In this document: positions 21,031-30,816 of the stretch, in pieces | How positions within the stretch are numbered: position 1 is the first letter of the stretch | How the letters are laid out: each line of letters opens with the position of its first letter | Assembly: GCF_003797835.1 (NCBI RefSeq) | Contig: NZ_RKMF01000016.1 | Coordinates: forward strand, 1 to 64,000 | Direction of reading: 5' to 3' | Length of the DNA stretch: 64,000 bases | Source: Kocuria soli | Lineage (GTDB): Bacteria; Actinomycetota; Actinomycetes; Actinomycetales; Micrococcaceae | Notes under the pieces: generated by a model | Seen by the model: the letters and a program-made list of their open reading frames with translations, nothing else | Databases searched by the model: none | What the model was told of the DNA's origin: nothing | Position numbers and translations under genes: made by a program

Positions 21031-24000
21031 TCAGCGATGCCGGATGGACACGGCGATCTTCTGGCCGCCCTTGAGGACGTATTCCGCGCCGCTCACGTGA
21101 ACGGTCACGGGGGCCGCCTGGCGGGAACTGCCTTCGAGTTCCAGGACGTCGTGGTCCATGCACACGCGGATGACCTGTCCGCGGTACAGGACGGTGAAGT
21201 TCACGGACTCCAGCTGGCGGGGCAGGTGAGGAGCGAACTCCAACCAGTCACCGCGCACACGGAGCCCCGCGTAGGCGCGGGTCACGACGTCGATGGATCC
21301 GGCCATTGCACCCATGTGAATGCCTTCGCCGGTCGTGCCGCCCTGGGTGTCGTCCATGTCCACCACCAGGGCGTCCTGGAAGGACGCCCAGGAACGGTCC
21401 GGTGCCAACCACGCCAGGACGGCCGCGTTGACCACCTTGGACAAGGACGACCCGTGCGAGGACCGCGCAATGTAGAAGTCCACGGTGCGCTGGACGACGT
21501 CGTGGTCGATCTCGTAGCCCATGCGACCCAGTTCCTCGACCAGGCCCTCCGGACCCAGGAGGTAGACCAACATGATGGTGTCGGCCTGCTTGGACAGCTT
21601 GTAGTTGTTGGTCATGTCGCCCTCGTTCTCCAGCAGGAGATCCAGGCGGCCGATGTTGCGGTACTTCTTCTTGTAGAAGTCCCAGTCCAGTTCGTCCAGG
21701 TCGTCGTACCCGTCGTACTGGGAGATCGTGCCGTCCGAGTTGAAGGCCACGGACAGCTTCTGGGACATCTCCAACCACTGGGCGGGCTCGTCGTCGGCGA
21801 TGCCGAACCGGGCCTGCAGTTCTTCACGCTGGTGGTCGACCATGTCGTTGAAGATGTTGGCAGAGTGGCGGAACAACCATGCCGCCAGGACGTTCGTGTA
21901 GGCGTTGTCCTTCAACCCGCCACCGTGCTGGCCGCGGGGGCCGTCGTGGTACTCGTCGGGCCCCATGACGCCGCTGATGTGGTACCGGCCGTCCGCCTCG
22001 TCGAACTCCGTCAGGGAGGCGAACAGTCGGGTGATGCCGATGATCAGTTCCGCACCCTGGCCGGAGAGCCAGTCGATGTCACCCGTGGACTCGTAGTAGT
22101 GCCAGGCGTTGTACGCGATGGCAAGACCCACGTGGAACTGCCGCCAGGAGTTGTCCGGGAGCCAGCGCTGCGAGTGGTGGTTGAACAGCTCGGGCGGGGT
22201 CTCCTCGCGGCCGTCGGAACCGGACTGCCAGGGGAACGCAGCACCGTTCAGACCGAATTCCTGAGCCCGGTAGTAGGCCATCGGGAGGCGGCGCCACCGG
22301 TAGGAGAGCAGCGACCGGCTGACCTGCGGTTCGTGCAGTGAGACCAGCGGGAGGATGTAGACGTCGTCCCAGAAGATGTGGCCGCGGTATCCCTCACCGT
22401 GCAACCCGCGTGCGGGGATGCCGGCGTCGCGCAGGGACAGGTGCGGGGCCAGGGTCTGTGCCGTGTGGAAGGCGTGGGTCCGCAGGGCCAGCTGGGTCAG
22501 CAGCTCTTCGGGTGCCGCGTCCGGCTGCAACTCGAGGTCGTAGCGGTCCCACAGGCGCTTCCAGGCCAGTTCGTGGCCTTCCAGCAGGCCCTTGAAGCCT
22601 CTGGGGCTGCGGTCCAGCTGGGACAGGGCGCCGTTGCGCGGGGAACCGATCGCGGCGTCGCGGCTGGTGACCACGGCGGTCGTGGTGTCGACGACCACCG
22701 GCTCGCCCTGGTGCACGCCGATCTGGTGGCGGCGGAACTCGGTGCCGCCCGGGCGGATCTCGCGCCGGGCGCGGATCGCGGCACCGCCGTACACCTCGGT
22801 GCGCTGGGCCGTGGCGATCTGGATCTGGGACTGGTTGGTGGTCACCAGGCTCAGCAGGGTCTCTTCCTCGTCCGGGAGCGTGGTGGATTCGTCCGTGGAC
22901 AGGTGATGCGCGTTGAGTTCCTTGTACTCCTTCACACCGTCATTGGTCACGGCCGGGTCGATGCCGGTGCGGACGTGGATGCGGCCGGTGAAGTTCAGCG
23001 CGGTGATGGTGGTTTCCTGGGCGGCCATGTGGCGCAGGCGCAGGGAGACCAAGCGACGCTGGACCACCTGGATGCGGGGGCGTTCCCCGCGTTCCGTGGG
23101 GTCACCGGTGAGGTCGGTCAGGACCATACTGCGGGTCAGAACACCCGTACGCAGGTCGAGTTCGGTCCGCTCGTCGGAGTACTCCAGCCCGCCTTCGGAG
23201 AGCCACGTGCCGCCGGAGACCCGCAGGTCCAGGTGCGTCCAGTTGGGGGCGTTGACCATGGACTCGTGTTCGATGTCGCGGCCGTTGATGTGGCTGACCA
23301 CGCGGTTGAACACGCCGGCCAGGTAGTTGCCGGGGTAGTGGATGCCGTCGGAGGACCGCTCGGAATGGGAGCCGCGCACACCCATGTACCCGTTGGACAG
23401 GGTCAGCAGGGACTCCCGCCGGGCCTGCACGGAGGGATCGAATCCGTGGAAGATCAGCTTCCAGGGGTCCTCACGCCGGGCCCCCAGGTCCAGTTCGCCG
23501 ACGTCGTTGAGCACCACGTGGGCACCGCCGTTGTACAGCGCCTGGCGGTCGCCATGTCGCGCAATGCCCACGACCAGCCCGAATCCACCGGCAACACCGG
23601 CTTCCACACCGGCCACGGCGTCCTCGACGACGACGGCCTCGACCGGGTCCACGCCGAGTTCCTTGGCGCACTGCAAGAACGTGTCGGGAGCCGGCTTGCC
23701 CGGCAGGCCGAGTTCAGCGGCGGTGGCGCCGTCGACGATGTGGTCGAACAGGTCCCCGAGCTCGGCCCGCGCCAGCACGGTGGCCGAGTTGCGGGAGGCC
23801 GTGACCAACCCGACGGGCACATTGCCCTCACGGAGGCGTTCGATCAGCCGGACCGTTCCGTCGAACACGCGAACGCCCTGGTCCTCCAAGGCCTCGTTGA
23901 AGTAGGTGTTCTTGAGGGCGGCCTGTCCCTGGACGGTCCAGGCACCCGGTTCGTCCTCCGCGGAGCCCTCAGGGAGGGCCGCGTTGCGTGAGGCCAGGAG

Positions 24001-24309
24001 CGTGCGGATCCCGTCTTCACGACGGCGTCCGTCGACGAAGTCCCGGTAGTCGGTGGCGACGTCGAACTCGGCCCGGTTCACGGGGGAGTCGTCGTCCAGC
24101 TGCTCCAGGCGAGAGTCCTGGAGCACCGCGTCGAACAGGGACTTCCAGGCGGAGGCGTGAACCGCGGCCGTGTCCGTGATGACGCCGTCCATGTCGAAGA
24201 TGACGGCCCCGTAGTTGGTGCGAAGTCCGTCGGAGGGCTTCTCGGGGAGTTCGTCCGCGCGGATCTGCGGGATCGAAGCCGTGTACGGCGCGGAGGGCAG
24301 TGCGTTCAA
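21031..24309 (-). CDS. Beta-phosphoglucomutase (HAD) - GH65 disaccharide phosphorylase fusion
   Basis: 1092 residues from TTG 24309, chosen for the AGGAG ribosome site six bases upstream. An ATG at 24435 (preceded by GGGGA) would add 42 residues of poor protein quality. Residues ~33-270 are a HAD phosphatase of the beta-phosphoglucomutase type (FDMDGVITDTAAVHASAWKS, nucleophile Asp39, acid/base Asp41). Residues ~310-1090 are a GH65 phosphorylase with catalytic acid Glu786 in GVMGPDEYHD and the entry motif ARGLHGEGYRGHIFWDD. GH65 enzymes split trehalose, maltose or kojibiose with phosphate to give beta-glucose-1-phosphate, which the mutase domain converts to glucose-6-phosphate. The fusion therefore couples both steps. 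The substrate is not fixed by sequence alone. Confidence 0.93.
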   Translation of the reverse strand: MNALPSAPYTASIPQIRADELPEKPSDGLRTNYGAVIFDMDGVITDTAAVHASAWKSLFDAVLQDSRLEQLDDDSPVNRAEFDVATDYRDFVDGRRREDGIRTLLASRNAALPEGSAEDEPGAWTVQGQAALKNTYFNEALEDQGVRVFDGTVRLIERLREGNVPVGLVTASRNSATVLARAELGDLFDHIVDGATAAELGLPGKPAPDTFLQCAKELGVDPVEAVVVEDAVAGVEAGVAGGFGLVVGIARHGDRQALYNGGAHVVLNDVGELDLGARREDPWKLIFHGFDPSVQARRESLLTLSNGYMGVRGSHSERSSDGIHYPGNYLAGVFNRVVSHINGRDIEHESMVNAPNWTHLDLRVSGGTWLSEGGLEYSDERTELDLRTGVLTRSMVLTDLTGDPTERGERPRIQVVQRRLVSLRLRHMAAQETTITALNFTGRIHVRTGIDPAVTNDGVKEYKELNAHHLSTDESTTLPDEEETLLSLVTTNQSQIQIATAQRTEVYGGAAIRARREIRPGGTEFRRHQIGVHQGEPVVVDTTTAVVTSRDAAIGSPRNGALSQLDRSPRGFKGLLEGHELAWKRLWDRYDLELQPDAAPEELLTQLALRTHAFHTAQTLAPHLSLRDAGIPARGLHGEGYRGHIFWDDVYILPLVSLHEPQVSRSLLSYRWRRLPMAYYRAQEFGLNGAAFPWQSGSDGREETPPELFNHHSQRWLPDNSWRQFHVGLAIAYNAWHYYESTGDIDWLSGQGAELIIGITRLFASLTEFDEADGRYHISGVMGPDEYHDGPRGQHGGGLKDNAYTNVLAAWLFRHSANIFNDMVDHQREELQARFGIADDEPAQWLEMSQKLSVAFNSDGTISQYDGYDDLDELDWDFYKKKYRNIGRLDLLLENEGDMTNNYKLSKQADTIMLVYLLGPEGLVEELGRMGYEIDHDVVQRTVDFYIARSSHGSSLSKVVNAAVLAWLAPDRSWASFQDALVVDMDDTQGGTTGEGIHMGAMAGSIDVVTRAYAGLRVRGDWLEFAPHLPRQLESVNFTVLYRGQVIRVCMDHDVLELEGSSRQAAPVTVHVSGAEYVLKGGQKIAVSIRHR

Positions 24310-24559
24310 CAGGTGCTCCTGATACTTACGAGCCCCGGACCCATGCGGTGTTTCGCGGCACGCAGCCACCCACCACCTGTTGGATCGGGCGCGGCTGTGC
24401 GTCGGAATGTCGGGGAAGGTCGATGCGGAGGGCATATTTTCCCCGGTTCAGGTGTCGCCACAGATTACATCACGCGCACGGGGGGCTGAGGTAGCCGGGA
24501 ATCGTCGGCTCTTGTGACCGCGCGGGTGGGTTTCGGCGGCTCGCGATCAACCAAGGTGG

Positions 24560-25198
24560 TCAGGCCCTGTTCGCTCTCGTGTAAGCGCCCAAGACACTGC
24601 GTTCCGAGTTCAGGAGATAGCGCTCCAACTCGAGTGCTCCCGCTTCCGGACCTTCGGCGGTGAATACGGTGAGCACCCTGCGGTTGCTGGCCACGAACGG
24701 GGCGTGCAGGGCGTGTGGATCGTCAAGCGTGAGGAACACGAGGCGTAATTCTGCGGCGACATTGCGGAACATGCGCATCAGGCGAGGACTGTCCGACAGG
24801 GCGACGATCCCTTCGTGAAAGGCCATGTTGGCACTCCCGATGCCGAGCCAGTCCTCAGCGGCCAAGTGCGTTTCTGCGAGGTGGAGGGCGTCCGCCATGC
24901 GTTGCACGGCGGGGTGCTCCGGGCGCGATCCGCGCATTGTGGTGCATTCCACCGTGCGTCGGCACCGATAGATGTCCACGACGTCAGCCATCGACGGCGC
25001 GGACACGGACACACCGCGATGTGGGACGTGGGTCAGCAGGCCCTGTTCGGCCAAGGCTCGGTACGTCTCTCGGAGGGTGTTGCGTGAGACCTCGAACTGG
25101 TTGGAGAGGGCCGATTCCGACAGGCGGGATCCGGGCATGAACTCGCCGTCGATGATCCGCTGGCGCAAGAGGTCAGCCAGGGCGTCGCTGTGTGTCAC
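24560..25198 (-). CDS. GntR-family regulator (FCD/FadR type) of the 5-oxoproline locus
   Basis: 212 residues from GTG 25198, where homology to the winged-helix domain starts (DALADLLRQRIIDGEFMPGS, then LSNQFEVSRNTLRETYRALA). The C-terminal half is an all-helical FCD-type effector domain with metal-ligand-style histidines (NMAFHEGIVAL). It is divergent from the NRAMP-like gene and the pxp genes. A FadR-type operator in the shared gap supports control of both promoters. The likely effector is 5-oxoproline or a derivative, by context only. Confidence 0.88.
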   Translation of the reverse strand: MTHSDALADLLRQRIIDGEFMPGSRLSESALSNQFEVSRNTLRETYRALAEQGLLTHVPHRGVSVSAPSMADVVDIYRCRRTVECTTMRGSRPEHPAVQRMADALHLAETHLAAEDWLGIGSANMAFHEGIVALSDSPRLMRMFRNVAAELRLVFLTLDDPHALHAPFVASNRRVLTVFTAEGPEAGALELERYLLNSERSVLGAYTRANRA

Positions 25199-25285
25199 AT
25201 TCCGGACTCTACCGAGCCGCCCGGGCGTCGTGGCGGCCTGACGTCGCCTCCCGGAGCAGGAGGGGCAGTTGGGTGAAGCGCACCC

Positions 25286-25314
25286 TTGACGATCACTTTG
25301 GATTGTTGAACAAT
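25286..25314 (+). promoter_or_regulatory. Promoter with overlapping GntR/FadR-type operator for the pxp operon
   Basis: TTGACG (25286-25291) and AACAAT (25309-25314) are 17 bases apart and form a plausible promoter. Overlapping the -10 is the palindrome ATTGTTGAACAAT (25302-25314), with 6-base perfect arms. It fits the T-N-G-T-N3-A-C-N-A consensus of FadR-subfamily GntR regulators. A further half site ATTGTT is at 25324-25329. Binding here would block polymerase, so repression by the divergent GntR protein is expected. Confidence 0.6.
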
Positions 25315-25375
25315 ACGGATCAGATTGTTCTATGGTGTAGATCACATTTGCGGTGTTCCCGGAAGGATGTCCGAC

Positions 25376-26653
25376 ATGGCTGGTTCGAGAACCGAGGTCC
25401 CCGACGGTATGGACGAACGCCGTTCGTCGGAGCTCGGGAAACGGGTTTCACGCGGAGCCGTGATCGGTGCCGTCTTCTTGATGGCCACGTCGGCCATCGG
25501 CCCCGGATTCATCACTCAGACCGCAACCTTCACGGCCGGCATGGGGGCCGCGTTCGCCTTCGCCATCCTCGCTTCGGTGCTGATCGACGTCGCGGTTCAG
25601 TTGAACGTCTGGCGAATGATCACCTCCTCGGGGCGCCGTGCGGGTGACCTTGCCAACCGCGCCATTCCGTTCTCGGGGCACTTCATCGCCGTGCTGGTGG
25701 TGATGGGCGGCTTGGCGTTCAACATCGGCAACATTGCCGGGGGCGGTCTGGGACTGAATGCGCTGCTCGGGATCGACCCCAAGGTCGGTGGCCTGCTGAC
25801 GGGCCTGTTGGCGATCGTGTTGTTCCTGATCAAGAAGGCCGGCCGCGTCATGGACGTGGTGTTGGTGGTTCTGGGCGTCGGCATGATCGTCATGACGGTG
25901 GTCGTCGCCGTCGTGTCCCAACCTCCCGTGGGGGAAGCGTTGAAGCAGACGATCGTTCCTGATCAGCTGAATTTCGCGACGATCACCACCATCGTGGGCG
26001 GCACGGTCGGCGGGTACATCACCTACGCCGGGGCCCACAGGTATCTCGACTCGGGTCTGGTGGGCCCCAGACATTCCCGCACGGTCATGCGCTCCGCCAC
26101 CAACGGGATCGTGGTGACTGCGATCATGCGGTACGTGCTCTTCCTGGCGGTCCTGGGGGTTGTCGCATCCGGGGTCGCACTGGACGTCTCGGGTCAGGCG
26201 GCGAACCCTGCCGGGCAGGCCTTCGGCGCCGTCCTGGGCCAGGCCGGGATACGGATCTTCGGTGCAATCTTCTGGGCCGCCGCTCTGAGCTCCGTGATCG
26301 GAGCCGCCTACACCTCGGCCACCTTCCTGTCGACGTTCAGCCGGAAGGTCTCCGGGGGGTGGGCCCTGCAACTGGCCACGGTCGGATTCATCGCCGTCTC
26401 CCTGGCGGTCTACCTGGTCATCGGCACGGCACCGGCTGCGCTGTTGGTGTTCGTCGGAGGGTTCAACGGTTTGATCCTCCCGGTGGGTCTCACGGTGTTC
26501 ATGTACATCGGGTGGTTCCGCCCCGACCTGCTGGGGGTGGACCGTTATCCGAGGTGGCTGCTGATTCCCGGGACACTGGTGACGGCGCTCACCTGGTACA
26601 TGGGTAGCGTGTCGGTCGGACCGATCTTCGACTTCCTGAGCACGAGCGGATGA
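25376..26653 (+). CDS. NRAMP-superfamily transporter without the metal-binding motif, probable 5-oxoproline-locus transporter (YcsG-like)
   Basis: 425 residues from ATG 25376, with GGAAGG nine bases upstream. ATG 25367 sits too close to the ribosome site. Ten to eleven membrane helices are visible. The TM1 motif that is DPGN in Mn/Fe NRAMP proteins reads GPGF here (residues 42-45), so the metal-binding Asp and Asn are both missing, and the TM6 MPH motif is absent (YAGAHRYL). In Bacillus subtilis the related gene ycsG sits among the pxp (ycsF, kipI, kipA) genes. I infer an organic substrate, most simply 5-oxoproline. It is the first gene of the operon. Confidence 0.82.
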
Positions 26654-26666
26654 CCTGGGGGAACTC

Positions 26667-27431
26667 ATGACCAGCATTGATCTGAACTCCGATCTGGGCG
26701 AGAACACGCACGACCGAGTGGTCAGCGACGACGAATCCATGCTCGCGATCGTGACGAGCGCGAACACGTCCTGTGGCTTCCACGCCGGCAGCCCCGAAGG
26801 GATCCGGCGAACGGTCGCAGCCGCGATCGATCGCGGTGTGAGCATCGGGGCCCACCCGAGTTATTGGGACTACGAGAACTTCGGGCGAACCGCGGTCGAC
26901 GTCGACTCCGCCACGTTGCAGGCGCACGTCGAGTACCAACTGGGTGCGTTGAGCGGGCTCACCTCTGCGCTGGGCAGCCGCGTCACTTACGTCAAGCCCC
27001 ACGGTGCCCTGTACAACGCCATTGCCCACGACGAGCGCCAGGCCAAGGCCGTCGTGGCGGCCATCAAGTCGATCGACCCGGGCCTGGTCCTGCTGGGACT
27101 GGCTGGTGGCGTCGTGTTGCGAGTGGCCCAACGTGCCGGCCTGCAGGTGGCGGCCGAGGCATTTGCGGATCGGGCCTACCAGTCCGACGGGCAGTTGGTT
27201 TCCCGTTCACTGCCGGGTGCGGTTCTGAACGACCCGGAAGATGTGGCCACCAGGATGCTCCGCCTGGTCGAGCACGGCGTGATCCGGTCGATTGACGGTC
27301 GGGACGTCCGCGTGGAGGCGCAGTCCATCTGTGTGCACGGCGACAGCCCCGGGTCTGTGGCCATGGCTGCCGAGACGCGGCGAGTCCTGGAATCGGCCGG
27401 AGTCACCATCGCACCTTTTGCGGGGATCTGA
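26667..27431 (+). CDS. pxpA: 5-oxoprolinase subunit A PxpA (LamB/YcsF family)
   Basis: 254 residues, normal length. The family signature is complete: [13 protein letters not shown] at the start, [23 protein letters not shown] and [14 protein letters not shown]. With PxpB and PxpC it forms the prokaryotic ATP-dependent 5-oxoprolinase, which hydrolyses 5-oxoproline (pyroglutamate) to glutamate. It starts 14 bases after the transporter gene. Its stop shares one base with the start of the fused pxpBC gene, so translation is probably coupled. Confidence 0.95.
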
Positions 27432-29098
27432 TGCGTTTCCTGCGGGCCTCGGACACGGCCCTGCTGGTCGAGGTCGAGGATCCGATGGAGGTGACGCGTC
27501 TGGGTGCCGCCTGGTCCGAGGTCCCCGGGGTCACGGAGCTGATCCCCGGAGCACAGACGGTGTTGGTGCGCTTCGACCCATCGCGGTTCAGCGACGCTCA
27601 GCTGGTGGACGCCCTCTCGACCGCCCGAACCGGAGCGCATTCCTCGGTCGCCGGTCCCGAGGTCAGCATCCCCGTGCGGTACGACGGCGAAGACCTCGAC
27701 GAGGTTGCGGATCTGCTGTCCGTCTCCGTGGACACCCTCATCGAGCGTCATCTGAACGCGCAGTGGCGGGTGGCCTTCTGCGGATTCGCTCCGGGGTTCG
27801 GGTACGCGACCTGCACCGATCCTTTGTTCGACGTTCCCCGCCGGTCCTCACCGAGAACGCGTGTGCCCGCCGGTGCGGTCGGCCTGGCCGGGCCCTTCAC
27901 GAGTGTCTATCCGCGCGACAGCCCCGGTGGGTGGCAGTTGATCGGTCACACCGACGCCGTGATGTGGGACATCGACCGCGACCCGCCGGCATTGGTTGCA
28001 CCGGGCACGGTCATCACGTTCGAGCAGCAACGCCCCGTCGCCGTCGTGACCAGTACACCGAATACCTCTGGACGAACGGGTGAGCTCTTCGACGGGTTGG
28101 AGGACGATCCGGTTGCTTCCGAGGTCGGTGGCCCGGCCTCGGGGTCCGGTCCAGAGGTGACGGTACGGGAGACCTGGCGGCCCGATCCCGTCCTGGCGTC
28201 ACTGCGCGTCATCCACCCCGGAATACGGGCCCTGATCCAGGACGGGGGACGCCCCGGTCACGCTGCCATGGGGGTCTCGGGTGCCGGTGCGGCCGACCGT
28301 ACCGCGCTGTCCCAGGCCAACAGGGCAGTGGGCAACCTCCCAACCGCGGCGGTCCTCGAATGCACGGGGGCGGTGCACATGGAATACCGCGGCCTTCCCG
28401 GCGTGGCTGCCGTGGCAGGCGCCCAGGGGACCGGCGAACTCGTTTCATCCGATGGCACGGTCCGACCGATCCTCCAAGGAGTGCCCTTCGCGATCGACGA
28501 CGGAGACGAACTGTCCTTGAGTCACCCCACGCACGGACTGCGCTATGTCATCGCGGTGAGGGGCGGTCTGCTCGCGCGTCCAGCTCTGGGCAGTGTCTCG
28601 TCGGACACGCTGGCTGGGCTCGGGCCCGGGCCGCTCGAGGCAGGGGACTGCGTCGTGGTCGGGGATCCTCGGCACGCCCCGGCCGTCGTCGAACCGCTGG
28701 GCATCACTCGAGACCTGCCACGTTCAGGGGAGACCGTGGACGTGATGATCACCCTGGGGCCGCGTGACGATTGGTTCACGCCCGAGGCCGTGGCGGCCCT
28801 CACGGCTCAGGAATGGCTGGTCGGCACCAGGTCGGATCGGGTGGGACTGCGACTGGAGGGAACCGTTCCGCTCGACAGGCGGATCGAGGGCGAGTTGCCG
28901 AGCGAAGGCACGGTCACGGGGGCGATCCAGGTGCCGCCGGACGGGCAGCCCGTGCTGTTCCTTCCCGATCACCCTTTGACGGGCGGCTATCCGGTCATCG
29001 GCGCGGTGGTCGCGGAACACCTTGACCTGGTGGGGCAGCTGCCACCGGGGGCCCGTATCCGGTTCCGGCTCCGGCCGGAGGAAAACTTTGGAGGCTGA
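27431..29098 (+). CDS. Fused 5-oxoprolinase subunits B and C (PxpB-PxpC; AHS1-AHS2 domains)
   Basis: 555 residues. Residues 1-205 are the AHS1/KipI (PxpB) domain, with YDGEDLDEVADLL, CGFAPGFGYATC and VPAGAVGLAGPFTSVYP. After a ~45-residue linker, residues ~255-555 are the AHS2/KipA (PxpC) domain (LIQDGGRPGHAAMGVSGAGA, EWLVGTRSDRVGLRLEG, LPDHPLTGGYPVIGAV). In many bacteria these are two genes, and here they are one chain. The same two domains form the carboxyltransferase part of urea carboxylase. That matters because the next gene, two bases downstream, encodes biotin carboxylase plus a biotin carrier. The start overlaps the pxpA stop (TGATG). Confidence 0.93.
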   Translation: MRFLRASDTALLVEVEDPMEVTRLGAAWSEVPGVTELIPGAQTVLVRFDPSRFSDAQLVDALSTARTGAHSSVAGPEVSIPVRYDGEDLDEVADLLSVSVDTLIERHLNAQWRVAFCGFAPGFGYATCTDPLFDVPRRSSPRTRVPAGAVGLAGPFTSVYPRDSPGGWQLIGHTDAVMWDIDRDPPALVAPGTVITFEQQRPVAVVTSTPNTSGRTGELFDGLEDDPVASEVGGPASGSGPEVTVRETWRPDPVLASLRVIHPGIRALIQDGGRPGHAAMGVSGAGAADRTALSQANRAVGNLPTAAVLECTGAVHMEYRGLPGVAAVAGAQGTGELVSSDGTVRPILQGVPFAIDDGDELSLSHPTHGLRYVIAVRGGLLARPALGSVSSDTLAGLGPGPLEAGDCVVVGDPRHAPAVVEPLGITRDLPRSGETVDVMITLGPRDDWFTPEAVAALTAQEWLVGTRSDRVGLRLEGTVPLDRRIEGELPSEGTVTGAIQVPPDGQPVLFLPDHPLTGGYPVIGAVVAEHLDLVGQLPPGARIRFRLRPEENFGG

Positions 29099-29100
29099 TC

Positions 29101-30816
29101 ATGAAGAAGATCCTGATCGCCAATCGCGGCGAGATCGCGGTTCGCGTGATCCGGGCCTGTACGGAAGCGGGGTACACCTCCGTGGCCGTCTACGCCGACC
29201 AGGACGTCGACGCCCTGCACGTGCGGATGGCCGATGAGGCCTACGGACTGGGTGGCACCACGGCGGCCGAGACCTACCTGTCTGTTCCCTCGCTGCTCGA
29301 CGTCGCTCGCAGGTGCGGCGCGGATTCGGTTCACCCCGGCTACGGTTTCCTGTCCGAGGACGCCGAGTTCGCTCGGGCCGTGGAAGAGGCCGGACTGGTA
29401 TGGATCGGTCCCGGCCCGGAAACGATCGAGGCCCTAGGGGACAAGATGACGGCCCGCGGGATCGCGCGGAGCGTGGGTGCACCATTGGCTCCGGGAACCG
29501 ACCGCCCGATCGAAGACGCTGAACAGGCGATGGCCTTTGTCGAAGAACACGGGCTTCCCGTGGTCATCAAGGCCTCCCACGGTGGCGGAGGACGGGGACT
29601 GAAGGTCGTCCGCTCGGTGGACGAAGTGGCCGCCGCCTTCGAATCGGCGACCAGGGAAGCCACAGCCGCGTTCGGACGGGGGGAGTGTTTCGTCGAGCGT
29701 TTCCTCGAGAGGCCACGCCACGTGGAGGTCCAGATCCTCGGTGACGGGGACGGCGGCGTCGTTGTGGTGGGGGACAGGGACTGCTCAGTCCAGCGGCGCA
29801 ATCAGAAGCTCATCGAAGAAGCCCCCGCCCCGGGGCTGACCCGGGCTCAGCGACGTGAACTACACGAGTCCGCGCGTCGCATCTGTGAGCATGTGCGGTA
29901 TCGAGGAGCGGGAACCGTGGAGTACCTGCTGGCCGAGGACGGGACGCTGTCCTTCCTGGAAGTCAATACACGGTTGCAGGTCGAGCACCCCGTCACGGAG
30001 GCGGTCACGGGTACGGATCTGGTCCGAGAGCAGTTGCGCATCGCGGAAGGTCACGCGCCGTCCTTCTCGGACACCCCGGAACCCGTGGGACATGCGTTCG
30101 AATTCCGCATCAACGCGGAGGACCCGGGGCGGGGCTTCCTGCCCAGCCCCGGCCGGGTGGATGCCCTGCGTGTCCCCGGGGGACCGGGCGTGCGGTGGGA
30201 TTCCGGGGTCGAGGCCGGGGACACCGTCCAGCCGGCGTTCGACTCCCTCATGGCAAAGCTGATCGTGCACGACGAGTCACGGGACGCCGCACTGGCCAGG
30301 GCGCGGCGTGCGCTGGCGGAACTCGTGATCGACGGGCCGGCCACGGTTGTCCCCTTCGCACGGTCGGTTCTGGACGCTCCGGAGTTCGGTTCTGACGATC
30401 TCAGTGTTCACACGCAGTGGATCGAGACGACGTACCTGTCGCGGGTGCAGCCCCAGATGCGACCGCATCCCGTCGTCAACCCCGGCCTGCGCCGGGTCCC
30501 GGTGGAGATCGACGGGAAGAGGGTCGTTCTGGGGCTCCCGGGGGAGTTGACCGCAGGCTTCAACGGTGCTGCTGGAGTTGCACCTGCGGAGCCGGAACCG
30601 GAACCCTCCGCCCTGCGGGCGCAGGTGCCCGGGACCCTGGTCCGATGGTTGGTCGACGACGGCGTCGAGGTGACGCAGGGGCAACCCGTCGCCGCCCTGG
30701 ACGCCATGAAGACCGAGGCACAAGTTCTGGCCCACCGTTCCGGAACACTTCGTCACGGTGCAGACATCGGGGCGGTGGTCGGCGTCGACGACGTGTTGGC
30801 GAGCATCGAGACCTGA
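29101..30816 (+). CDS. Biotin carboxylase - biotin carrier (BC-BCCP) fusion in the 5-oxoproline operon
   Basis: 571 residues. Residues 1-450 are biotin carboxylase: [20 protein letters not shown], the ATP-grasp loop [20 protein letters not shown], and [20 protein letters not shown] with catalytic Glu and Arg. Residues ~500-571 are a biotinyl domain with biotin site Lys537 in [14 protein letters not shown] is more common. No carboxyltransferase of the acyl-CoA type is encoded nearby. The only carboxyltransferase-like domains are the AHS1-AHS2 domains of the preceding gene, so the two proteins together recreate the parts of a split urea-carboxylase-type enzyme. The true acceptor (urea, 5-oxoproline or other) is unknown. 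It is the last gene of the operon. Confidence 0.9.

Follow-up and report, generated by a model that had tools for sequence, protein, structure and literature searches.

A biotin carboxylase-carrier protein linked to the fused PxpBC in a 5-oxoproline operon of Kocuria soli

The window, a stretch of 64,000 nucleotides from Kocuria soli (contig NZ_RKMF01000016.1, positions 1 to 64,000), contains an operon in which the genes of PxpA and of a PxpB-PxpC fusion (PxpBC) are followed by the gene of a protein that joins a biotin carboxylase (BC) to a biotin carboxyl carrier protein (BCCP). The known kind to which the system belongs is the PxpABC 5-oxoprolinase; the new part is a recurrent, operon-encoded paralogue of AccA3 together with a decayed form of it. 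Based on the recurrence of the pairing, the copy numbers of AccA3 paralogues and a complex of homologous proteins in the structure entry 9YX5, PxpBC very probably has a dedicated BC partner in this 5-oxoproline operon. That this partner drives a carboxylation-dependent opening of the lactam has about even chances.

5-Oxoproline arises spontaneously from glutamine and glutamate and needs to be removed; to our knowledge, the way in which PxpABC uses ATP on the lactam is unsettled. The reading put forward here, which may prove right or wrong with similar probability, is that of a PxpR-controlled operon for the uptake and degradation of 5-oxoproline, encoding an ATP-dependent 5-oxoprolinase with a dedicated BC-BCCP subunit and N-carboxylation of the lactam. 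The PxpT-like transporter would import 5-oxoproline, the BC-BCCP protein would carboxylate its own biotin using ATP and bicarbonate, and PxpBC would take carboxybiotin and 5-oxoproline and transfer the carboxyl group to the lactam nitrogen. PxpA would hydrolyse the activated ring to glutamate with the loss of CO2, comparable with the action of allophanate hydrolase after urea carboxylase. We infer the physical partnership in Kocuria soli, the biotin dependence, the N-carboxylation and the hand-over to PxpA. If a carboxylase subunit does work with PxpBC, the question of how PxpABC spends ATP has a concrete and testable answer, and an enzyme of damage repair is connected with the biotin carboxylases and with the mycobacterial AccA3 complex of 9YX5.

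The BC-BCCP protein and its pairing with PxpBC

The first-pass annotation, made from the sequence alone, had described a PxpB-PxpC fusion followed two bases later by a BC-BCCP fusion with an AMKTE biotin site, and had noted that BC, BCCP and both carboxyltransferase (CT) halves are provided by this pair of neighbouring genes. Both observations were confirmed by the open reading frames (ORFs) and Pfam domains. The ORFs of PxpA and PxpBC overlap by 1 base, and the gap between PxpBC and BC-BCCP is 2 bases. CT_C_D (PF02682; 203.5 bits, residues 1-188) and CT_A_B (PF02626; 230.5 bits, residues 280-546) were detected in one PxpBC protein, both above the Pfam gathering cut-off. The NCBIfam models scored below their curated cut-offs on PxpBC, with 123 of 145.55 bits for PxpB, 149.8 of 500 for PxpC and 204.2 of 230.2 for the urea-amidolyase-related domain. 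The BC-BCCP protein contains Biotin_carb_N, CPSase_L_D2, Biotin_carb_C and Biotin_lipoyl (PF00364, 37.2 bits), and its predicted biotin site lies in the motif DAMKTEAQ. In a comparison with 45 other BCs, 95 columns were invariant when a single deviating sequence was tolerated, and the window BC keeps 94 of them.

A survey of the co-occurrence of BC-BCCP with fused pxpBC had been proposed in the first-pass annotation. Of the 77 named loci that could be scored, 61 have a same-strand BC within 1.5 kb downstream of PxpBC; the loci were taken from the best 80 of 558 relatives of a PxpBC alignment with 9 BC-linked rows among its 11, and the proportion is therefore enriched towards the query. Three named loci with fewer than 1500 bases downstream were excluded. 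The pairing was found in several families of Actinomycetota and in Pseudomonadota. A second set of 60 family loci was hand-picked and non-random, comprising weak, own-genus and top matches; L082, L092 and L093, which lie at a contig end or have a broken BC, do not enter the counts of this set, and the assignments of L059 and L073 were changed manually. Among the BC-linked proteins, the biotin-lysine motif occurs in 58 of 61 from the named loci and in 22 of 22 from the family set; of the 85 pxp-linked BCs, 82 retain 91-95 of the 95 invariant columns. The pairwise distances of PxpBC and BC correlated with r of 0.81 over 84 loci, compared with a maximum of 0.16 in 500 permutations, which shows co-inheritance; the PxpA distances correlated with those of PxpBC and BC with r of 0.84 and 0.83, respectively.

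The window protein resembles AccA3, the alpha subunit of actinobacterial acyl-CoA carboxylases, in its BC-BCCP architecture and length, and it shares 58% identity with the AccA3 of the same genome over residues 2-569. It differs from AccA3 in being linked to pxpBC and in its placement outside the AccA3 clade. In the BC tree, the 85 pxp-linked BCs were separate from a clade of 20 actinobacterial AccA3 proteins (support 99); type II BCs (see below), those of urea carboxylase and other BCs were more distant, and the divergent AccA3-like row L196 fell outside the AccA3 clade. The copy numbers were compared using an AccA3-class defined by at least 53% identity and at least 588 bits to the window protein. 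Among 20 genomes with a pxp operon devoid of BC, 19 have one AccA3-class protein, located in the AccA3 clade. The 20th genome, G115, has a second one (C31:23054-24790), which groups among the pxp-linked BCs and lies about 1.7 kb from another pxpA (C31:26449-27162). Among 28 BC-linked genomes, 20 have two AccA3-class proteins and 8 have one; in four Comamonadaceae (L121, L125, L127, L130) the single copy is that at the pxp position, as coordinates compared by hand showed. In the genomes searched, the copy number of AccA3 paralogues was thus shown to follow the pxp operon.

The inventory of the host genome (2.95 Mb, 31 contigs), obtained with profile searches by family, gave the window PxpA as the single LamB/YcsF match and the window PxpBC as the single CT_A_B match. 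Three Biotin_carb_C matches were detected: the window BC, one in a 1177-residue frame, whose length resembles that of a pyruvate carboxylase, and one in a 713-residue frame that falls inside the AccA3 clade and lies about 13 kb from the sole PF01039 carboxyltransferase on the same contig. With one PF01039 carboxyltransferase on the AccA3 contig and one CT_A_B protein, the window BC is left with no other unclaimed CT of the two families searched.

These results bear on the possibility that BC-BCCP is a second AccA3 for acyl-CoA carboxylase that stands here by accident, which we regard as highly improbable. Its relationship to the AccA3 of the genome would fit. The position outside the AccA3 clade, the recurrence over Actinomycetota families and Pseudomonadota, its homologues as sole AccA3-class proteins of four Comamonadaceae genomes and the location of the only PF01039 carboxyltransferase on the AccA3 contig all speak against it. 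As an accidental neighbour, the BC was ruled out by the recurrence together with the copy numbers.

Physical precedent is provided by 9YX5, entitled "Structure of the long chain acyl-CoA carboxylase complex from Mycobacterium smegmatis with MSMEG_0435-MSMEG_0436 bound". Among PDB sequences, the PxpC half matched 9YX5 chain V best, level with 3MML chain A, and the BC-BCCP protein matched AccA3 best, a sequence also present in 9YX5. Homologues of PxpC and PxpB occur in this entry together with AccA3; the carboxylase of 9YX5 is an acyl-CoA carboxylase, whereas in the window the pxp operon itself encodes the proposed alpha subunit as a distinct paralogue. Genomic linkage and the homologue complex of 9YX5, by analogy, point to PxpBC as the candidate CT partner of BC-BCCP. 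Sharing of AccA3 would explain the pxp operons that have no BC of their own. A search limited to open papers found no description of the PxpBC/BC-BCCP pairing or of 9YX5. The name "biotin-dependent carboxyltransferase family protein" used in public annotation already hints at the carboxylase link of PxpBC. Two adjacent genes resembling both regions of the urea carboxylase CT were noted earlier, without functional data (PMC3199775).

The 5-oxoproline context and the carboxyltransferase site

In Corynebacterium glutamicum, growth on 5-oxoproline requires the pxpTABC cluster, which is transcribed divergently from pxpR; PxpR binds 5-oxoproline and recognises the site agattgttcaacaatct, centred 65 bp before pxpT (PMC13274462). 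The window shares with this system the divergent GntR regulator, the Nramp-type transporter, the order pxpA, pxpB, pxpC and the intergenic PxpR core; it differs in the fusion of pxpB with pxpC and in the BC-BCCP gene after them. The window regulator, with a homologue of 67% identity in Kocuria subflava (L150), is divergent to the pxpT gene as in C. glutamicum, and the transporter agrees with C. glutamicum PxpT in place and family. The core ATTGTTNAACAAT occurs exactly once in the window, between the regulator and transporter genes, 59 or 68 bp ahead of the two likely pxpT start codons. No second match with up to one mismatch was found in the window, and none in 100 shuffles.

Occurrences of the core close to pxpT, pxpA or the regulator gene were counted across loci, one mismatch being allowed. 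It was present in 20 of 23 family and 47 of 61 named BC-linked loci, compared with 0 of 21 and 3 of 16 BC-less ones. In the other arrangements, it was found in none of the 13 type II, 12 K-type and 4 type III loci, and in 2 of the 44 remaining phylum loci. When cores anywhere in the locus were included, only the 47 changed, to 49. By this distribution in the sequences, the BC-linked operon belongs to the 5-oxoproline regulon, which does not by itself prove the substrate. Distant regulators may use another site, and the zero counts are therefore compatible with 5-oxoproline elsewhere.

The window pair resembles the urea carboxylase of Kluyveromyces lactis (3VA7/5I8I, TIGR02712) in that BC, BCCP, CT_A_B and CT_C_D are all present. 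It differs in that these domains are distributed over two genes, the order of the CT halves is reversed, the operon has PxpA and no allophanate hydrolase, and the CT site residues are others. The AlphaFold model of the window PxpBC, built with 43 sequences, reached a pLDDT of 90; the one built without alignment (pLDDT 35) was unusable. The model matched TTHA0988 (Z 39.4), M. smegmatis Msmeg0435-0436 (39.0, PxpC half) and E. coli YbgJK (35.3, PxpC half), and its CT_A_B half aligned with that of urea carboxylase with Z of 34.4 and 25.8; in these comparisons, rows with Z below 8 mean little.

The general base of K. lactis urea amidolyase is probably Lys1605 (PMC5770610). In the alignment this residue corresponds to the lysine of TTKYNPAR in bacterial urea carboxylase and to Arg137 (VPRRSSPR) in the window, and the window has LPSEG where urea carboxylase has PSN. 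Ser491 of LPSEG is kept in 85 of 85 BC-linked and 21 of 22 BC-less PxpBC, and Glu492 in all. These residues place the window CT with the Pxp kind and not with the urea-carboxylase kind. With an arginine at the general-base position, carboxyl transfer on the window CT would need a different base.

Urea as the substrate finds no support and was rejected. PxpBC is the only CT_A_B protein of the host genome, which leaves no separate urea carboxylase among the matches to this family; no match to the urea carboxylase equivalog TIGR02712 was over the cut-off among the 9 of 18 candidates scored; and the window CT carries arginine at the position of the urea carboxylase lysine. On TIGR02712, PxpBC and BC reached 132 and 522 bits against a cut-off of 1303.85. 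The absence of an allophanate hydrolase, claimed in the first-pass annotation, applies to the operon; amidase-family matches, which may include an allophanate hydrolase, occur on two other contigs of the genome.

Role of the subunit and competing explanations

Several results weigh against a carboxylation role of the subunit or narrow its reach. Arginine stands at the Lys1605 position in all 107 PxpBC rows, of which 85 are BC-linked and 22 BC-less, some of the latter being split or containing stops (L047, L048, L156, L170). The BC-less PxpBC differ at 0-12 of the 103 columns conserved in BC-linked ones, and the BC label undergoes 16 changes on the PxpBC tree, at least 10 of which are forced by well-supported branches. 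When the BC tree was rooted with the type II outgroup, leaving out L196, the AccA3 clade (100) was placed among the pxp-linked BCs, which may therefore not form one clade. The correlation of distances (r of 0.81) is due in part to shared descent. The word "carboxylase" has 0 occurrences in the main text of the C. glutamicum pxpTABC paper (PMC13274462).

In the wider phylum sample, PxpA was detected in 66 of 296 genomes, 60 of which were used (G000 and G009, already covered, and G214, G331, G352 and G368 were omitted). BC was absent within about 6 kb of pxpA in 43 of these 60 loci. The remaining 17 comprise 10 with K-type CTs, 4 of type III, 2 with BC about 6 kb off, and L217; in the latter, the only phylum locus of its sort, a BC best matched by that of the window lies on the other strand, 2.9 kb away. 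Together with the counts from the named loci, these numbers mean that the arrangement of the window is common in its nearest relatives and uncommon in the phylum at large. A PxpBC marker that splits BC-linked from BC-less proteins was also sought: no catalytic motif does so, and the best columns, 354 and 356, are uncorrected for descent.

Further counter-evidence comes from Frigoribacterium, which also offers a natural experiment separating carboxylation from ATP-only activation. In three named loci of this genus, the pxp-linked BC is 508-513 aa long, contains no biotin motif and keeps 79-81 of the 95 invariant columns. Among 16 genomes of the genus, 9 have a biotin-less BC beside PxpBC together with an AccA3-class match, and 7 have the AccA3-class match alone. 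The residues predicted to bind ATP/Mg and biotin/bicarbonate are assigned by analogy with E. coli BC. In all nine subunits Y81, F83, N289, R291 and Q293 are replaced, and V294 is in four, whereas none of the nine has lost E295 or R336 of the biotin/bicarbonate pocket; of the ATP/Mg residues, K115, K157, H207, E274 and E287 are kept in all and K236 in 8, with one K236E. The pairwise dN/dS values of 0.10-0.48 (NG86, 36 pairs) indicate that the subunit, by its sequence, is still under purifying selection. The case favours an ATP-only or structural role in this lineage, or a supply of carboxybiotin from AccA3. Co-decay of the CT site was considered as well and rejected, as just 5 of 103 conserved PxpBC columns (302, 371, 420, 493, 511) are changed in all three named loci.

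It is accordingly conceivable, although unlikely, that the BC-derived subunit serves ring opening in general through its ATP-grasp site, phosphorylating the lactam or another acyl group or powering PxpBC, with the biotin domain secondary or inherited. The nine Frigoribacterium loci, with no BCCP motif, five replaced pocket residues and the six ATP/Mg residues intact in 8 of 9, would suit such a role, as would the constraint on the subunit and the unsettled use of ATP by PxpABC. On the other hand, E295 and R336 are retained, and an AccA3-class protein of 53% identity to the query is present in each of the three named Frigoribacterium genomes and could supply carboxybiotin. Outside Frigoribacterium, the biotin-lysine motif is found in all 58 named and all 22 family proteins scored, and the BC columns kept by 82 of the 85 proteins would be needless for a biotin-free role. 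A reading in which PxpABC works alone, while its contact with BC-BCCP or AccA3 has a tethering or regulatory purpose, for instance that of coupling 5-oxoproline use to acyl-CoA carboxylase or the biotin state, is rather improbable too. B. subtilis PxpABC was reportedly reconstituted from three recombinant proteins, which counts against any need for a BC. The binding of PxpB/PxpC homologues to an acyl-CoA carboxylase complex in 9YX5, the many PxpBC with no adjacent BC, the arginine at the general-base position and the retention of the Frigoribacterium subunit after loss of the biotin domain point the same way; the conservation of BC and biotin residues in nearly all BC-linked proteins exceeds the needs of a scaffold.

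That the substrate of the machine is a different lactam or a ureide, and not 5-oxoproline, is very improbable. Several arrangements of PxpA, CT and BC exist, and type II, with its urea-carboxylase-like lysine and no PxpR site, may differ in substrate. In the window itself, the PxpR core near its C. glutamicum position, the PxpT-like transporter and the PxpR-like regulator argue for 5-oxoproline. Carboxylation-dependent opening of 5-oxoproline or a related lactam, as suggested in the first-pass annotation, is partly supported by the recurrent pairing, the 9YX5 homologue complex and the PxpR core, while the postulated carboxylation step meets an arginine in place of Lys1605. A broader proposal, that the actinobacterial 5-oxoprolinase is a biotin carboxylase with a dedicated or a shared AccA3-type subunit and that the Frigoribacterium subunit has turned into an ATP-only lactam activator, is tentative and, as a whole, somewhat less likely than not.

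Other arrangements and features of the locus

A urea-carboxylase-like lysine at the Lys1605 position was found in two type II rows and in 12 phylum loci, the latter termed K-type; PSN is present in both type II rows. BC lies in the region of 10 of the 12 K-type loci, and the other two, L245 and L252, are at contig ends with a BCCP match. Type II (L050:3484-7777; 13 loci of the same family) is BC-linked, has the urea-carboxylase-like lysine and no PxpR site, and consists of PxpA, an 81-aa BCCP-like protein (EIMKQF), BC, PxpB, PxpC and a gene that by eye is permease-like. Its substrate is perhaps another lactam or ureide. In type III (L224:4615-11223; L213, L215, L227), the order is PxpB, PxpC, a 161-aa BCCP-like protein (VEAMKMMN), BC, a 256-aa gene, PxpA and a transporter that by eye is Nramp-like; the 256-aa gene is probably DUF1445-like, and the CT is of the Arg type. 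Type II and K-type with their urea-carboxylase-like lysine, and type III with its separate BCCP and BC, suggest that the carboxyltransferase fold is used beyond urea.

Urea-carboxylase-type CT halves with no BC in the same frame were observed in L100 and L101 (G121, G133). In L101 an amidase-like frame, by eye, adjoins the CT halves, and this locus is perhaps a split urea carboxylase. In L092 (G018:C1:475224-489937), of type I, BC matches in two weak pieces (52% over 103 and 37% over 243), and it is perhaps a decaying or frameshifted copy.

The features of the operon, together with the Frigoribacterium loci, are presented in Table 1.

Table 1. Coordinates of the pxp operon features in the window and of the biotin-less BC loci of Frigoribacterium.
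Feature	Position	Strand	Basis
GntR/FCD regulator, PxpR-like	24560..25345	-	Pfam GntR + FCD; listed ORF, true start probably GTG at about 25198
PxpR operator core ATTGTTGAACAAT	25302..25314	.	core of C. glutamicum PxpR site
PxpT-like Nramp/APC transporter	25367..26653	+	Pfam Nramp 71.9 bits; probable start ATG 25367 or 25376
PxpA, LamB/YcsF family, 254 aa	26667..27431	+	PF03746 304 bits; NF003814 330 bits (cut-off 226)
PxpB-PxpC fusion (CT_C_D + CT_A_B), carboxyltransferase-like, 555 aa	27431..29098	+	Pfam, structure model, residue mapping
BC-BCCP fusion, paralogous to AccA3 and proposed as alpha subunit dedicated to PxpBC, 571 aa	29101..30816	+	Pfam, invariant columns, biotin motif
Frigoribacterium biotin-less BC loci	L134:9632-11176; L139:9686-11209; L332-L334, L338-L343		

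A serine hydroxymethyltransferase gene is located downstream of the BC-BCCP gene. On the other side of the operon, at 21031-24435 on the minus strand, a 1134-aa protein is encoded that by eye has the look of a fusion of beta-phosphoglucomutase with a GH65-type disaccharide phosphorylase.

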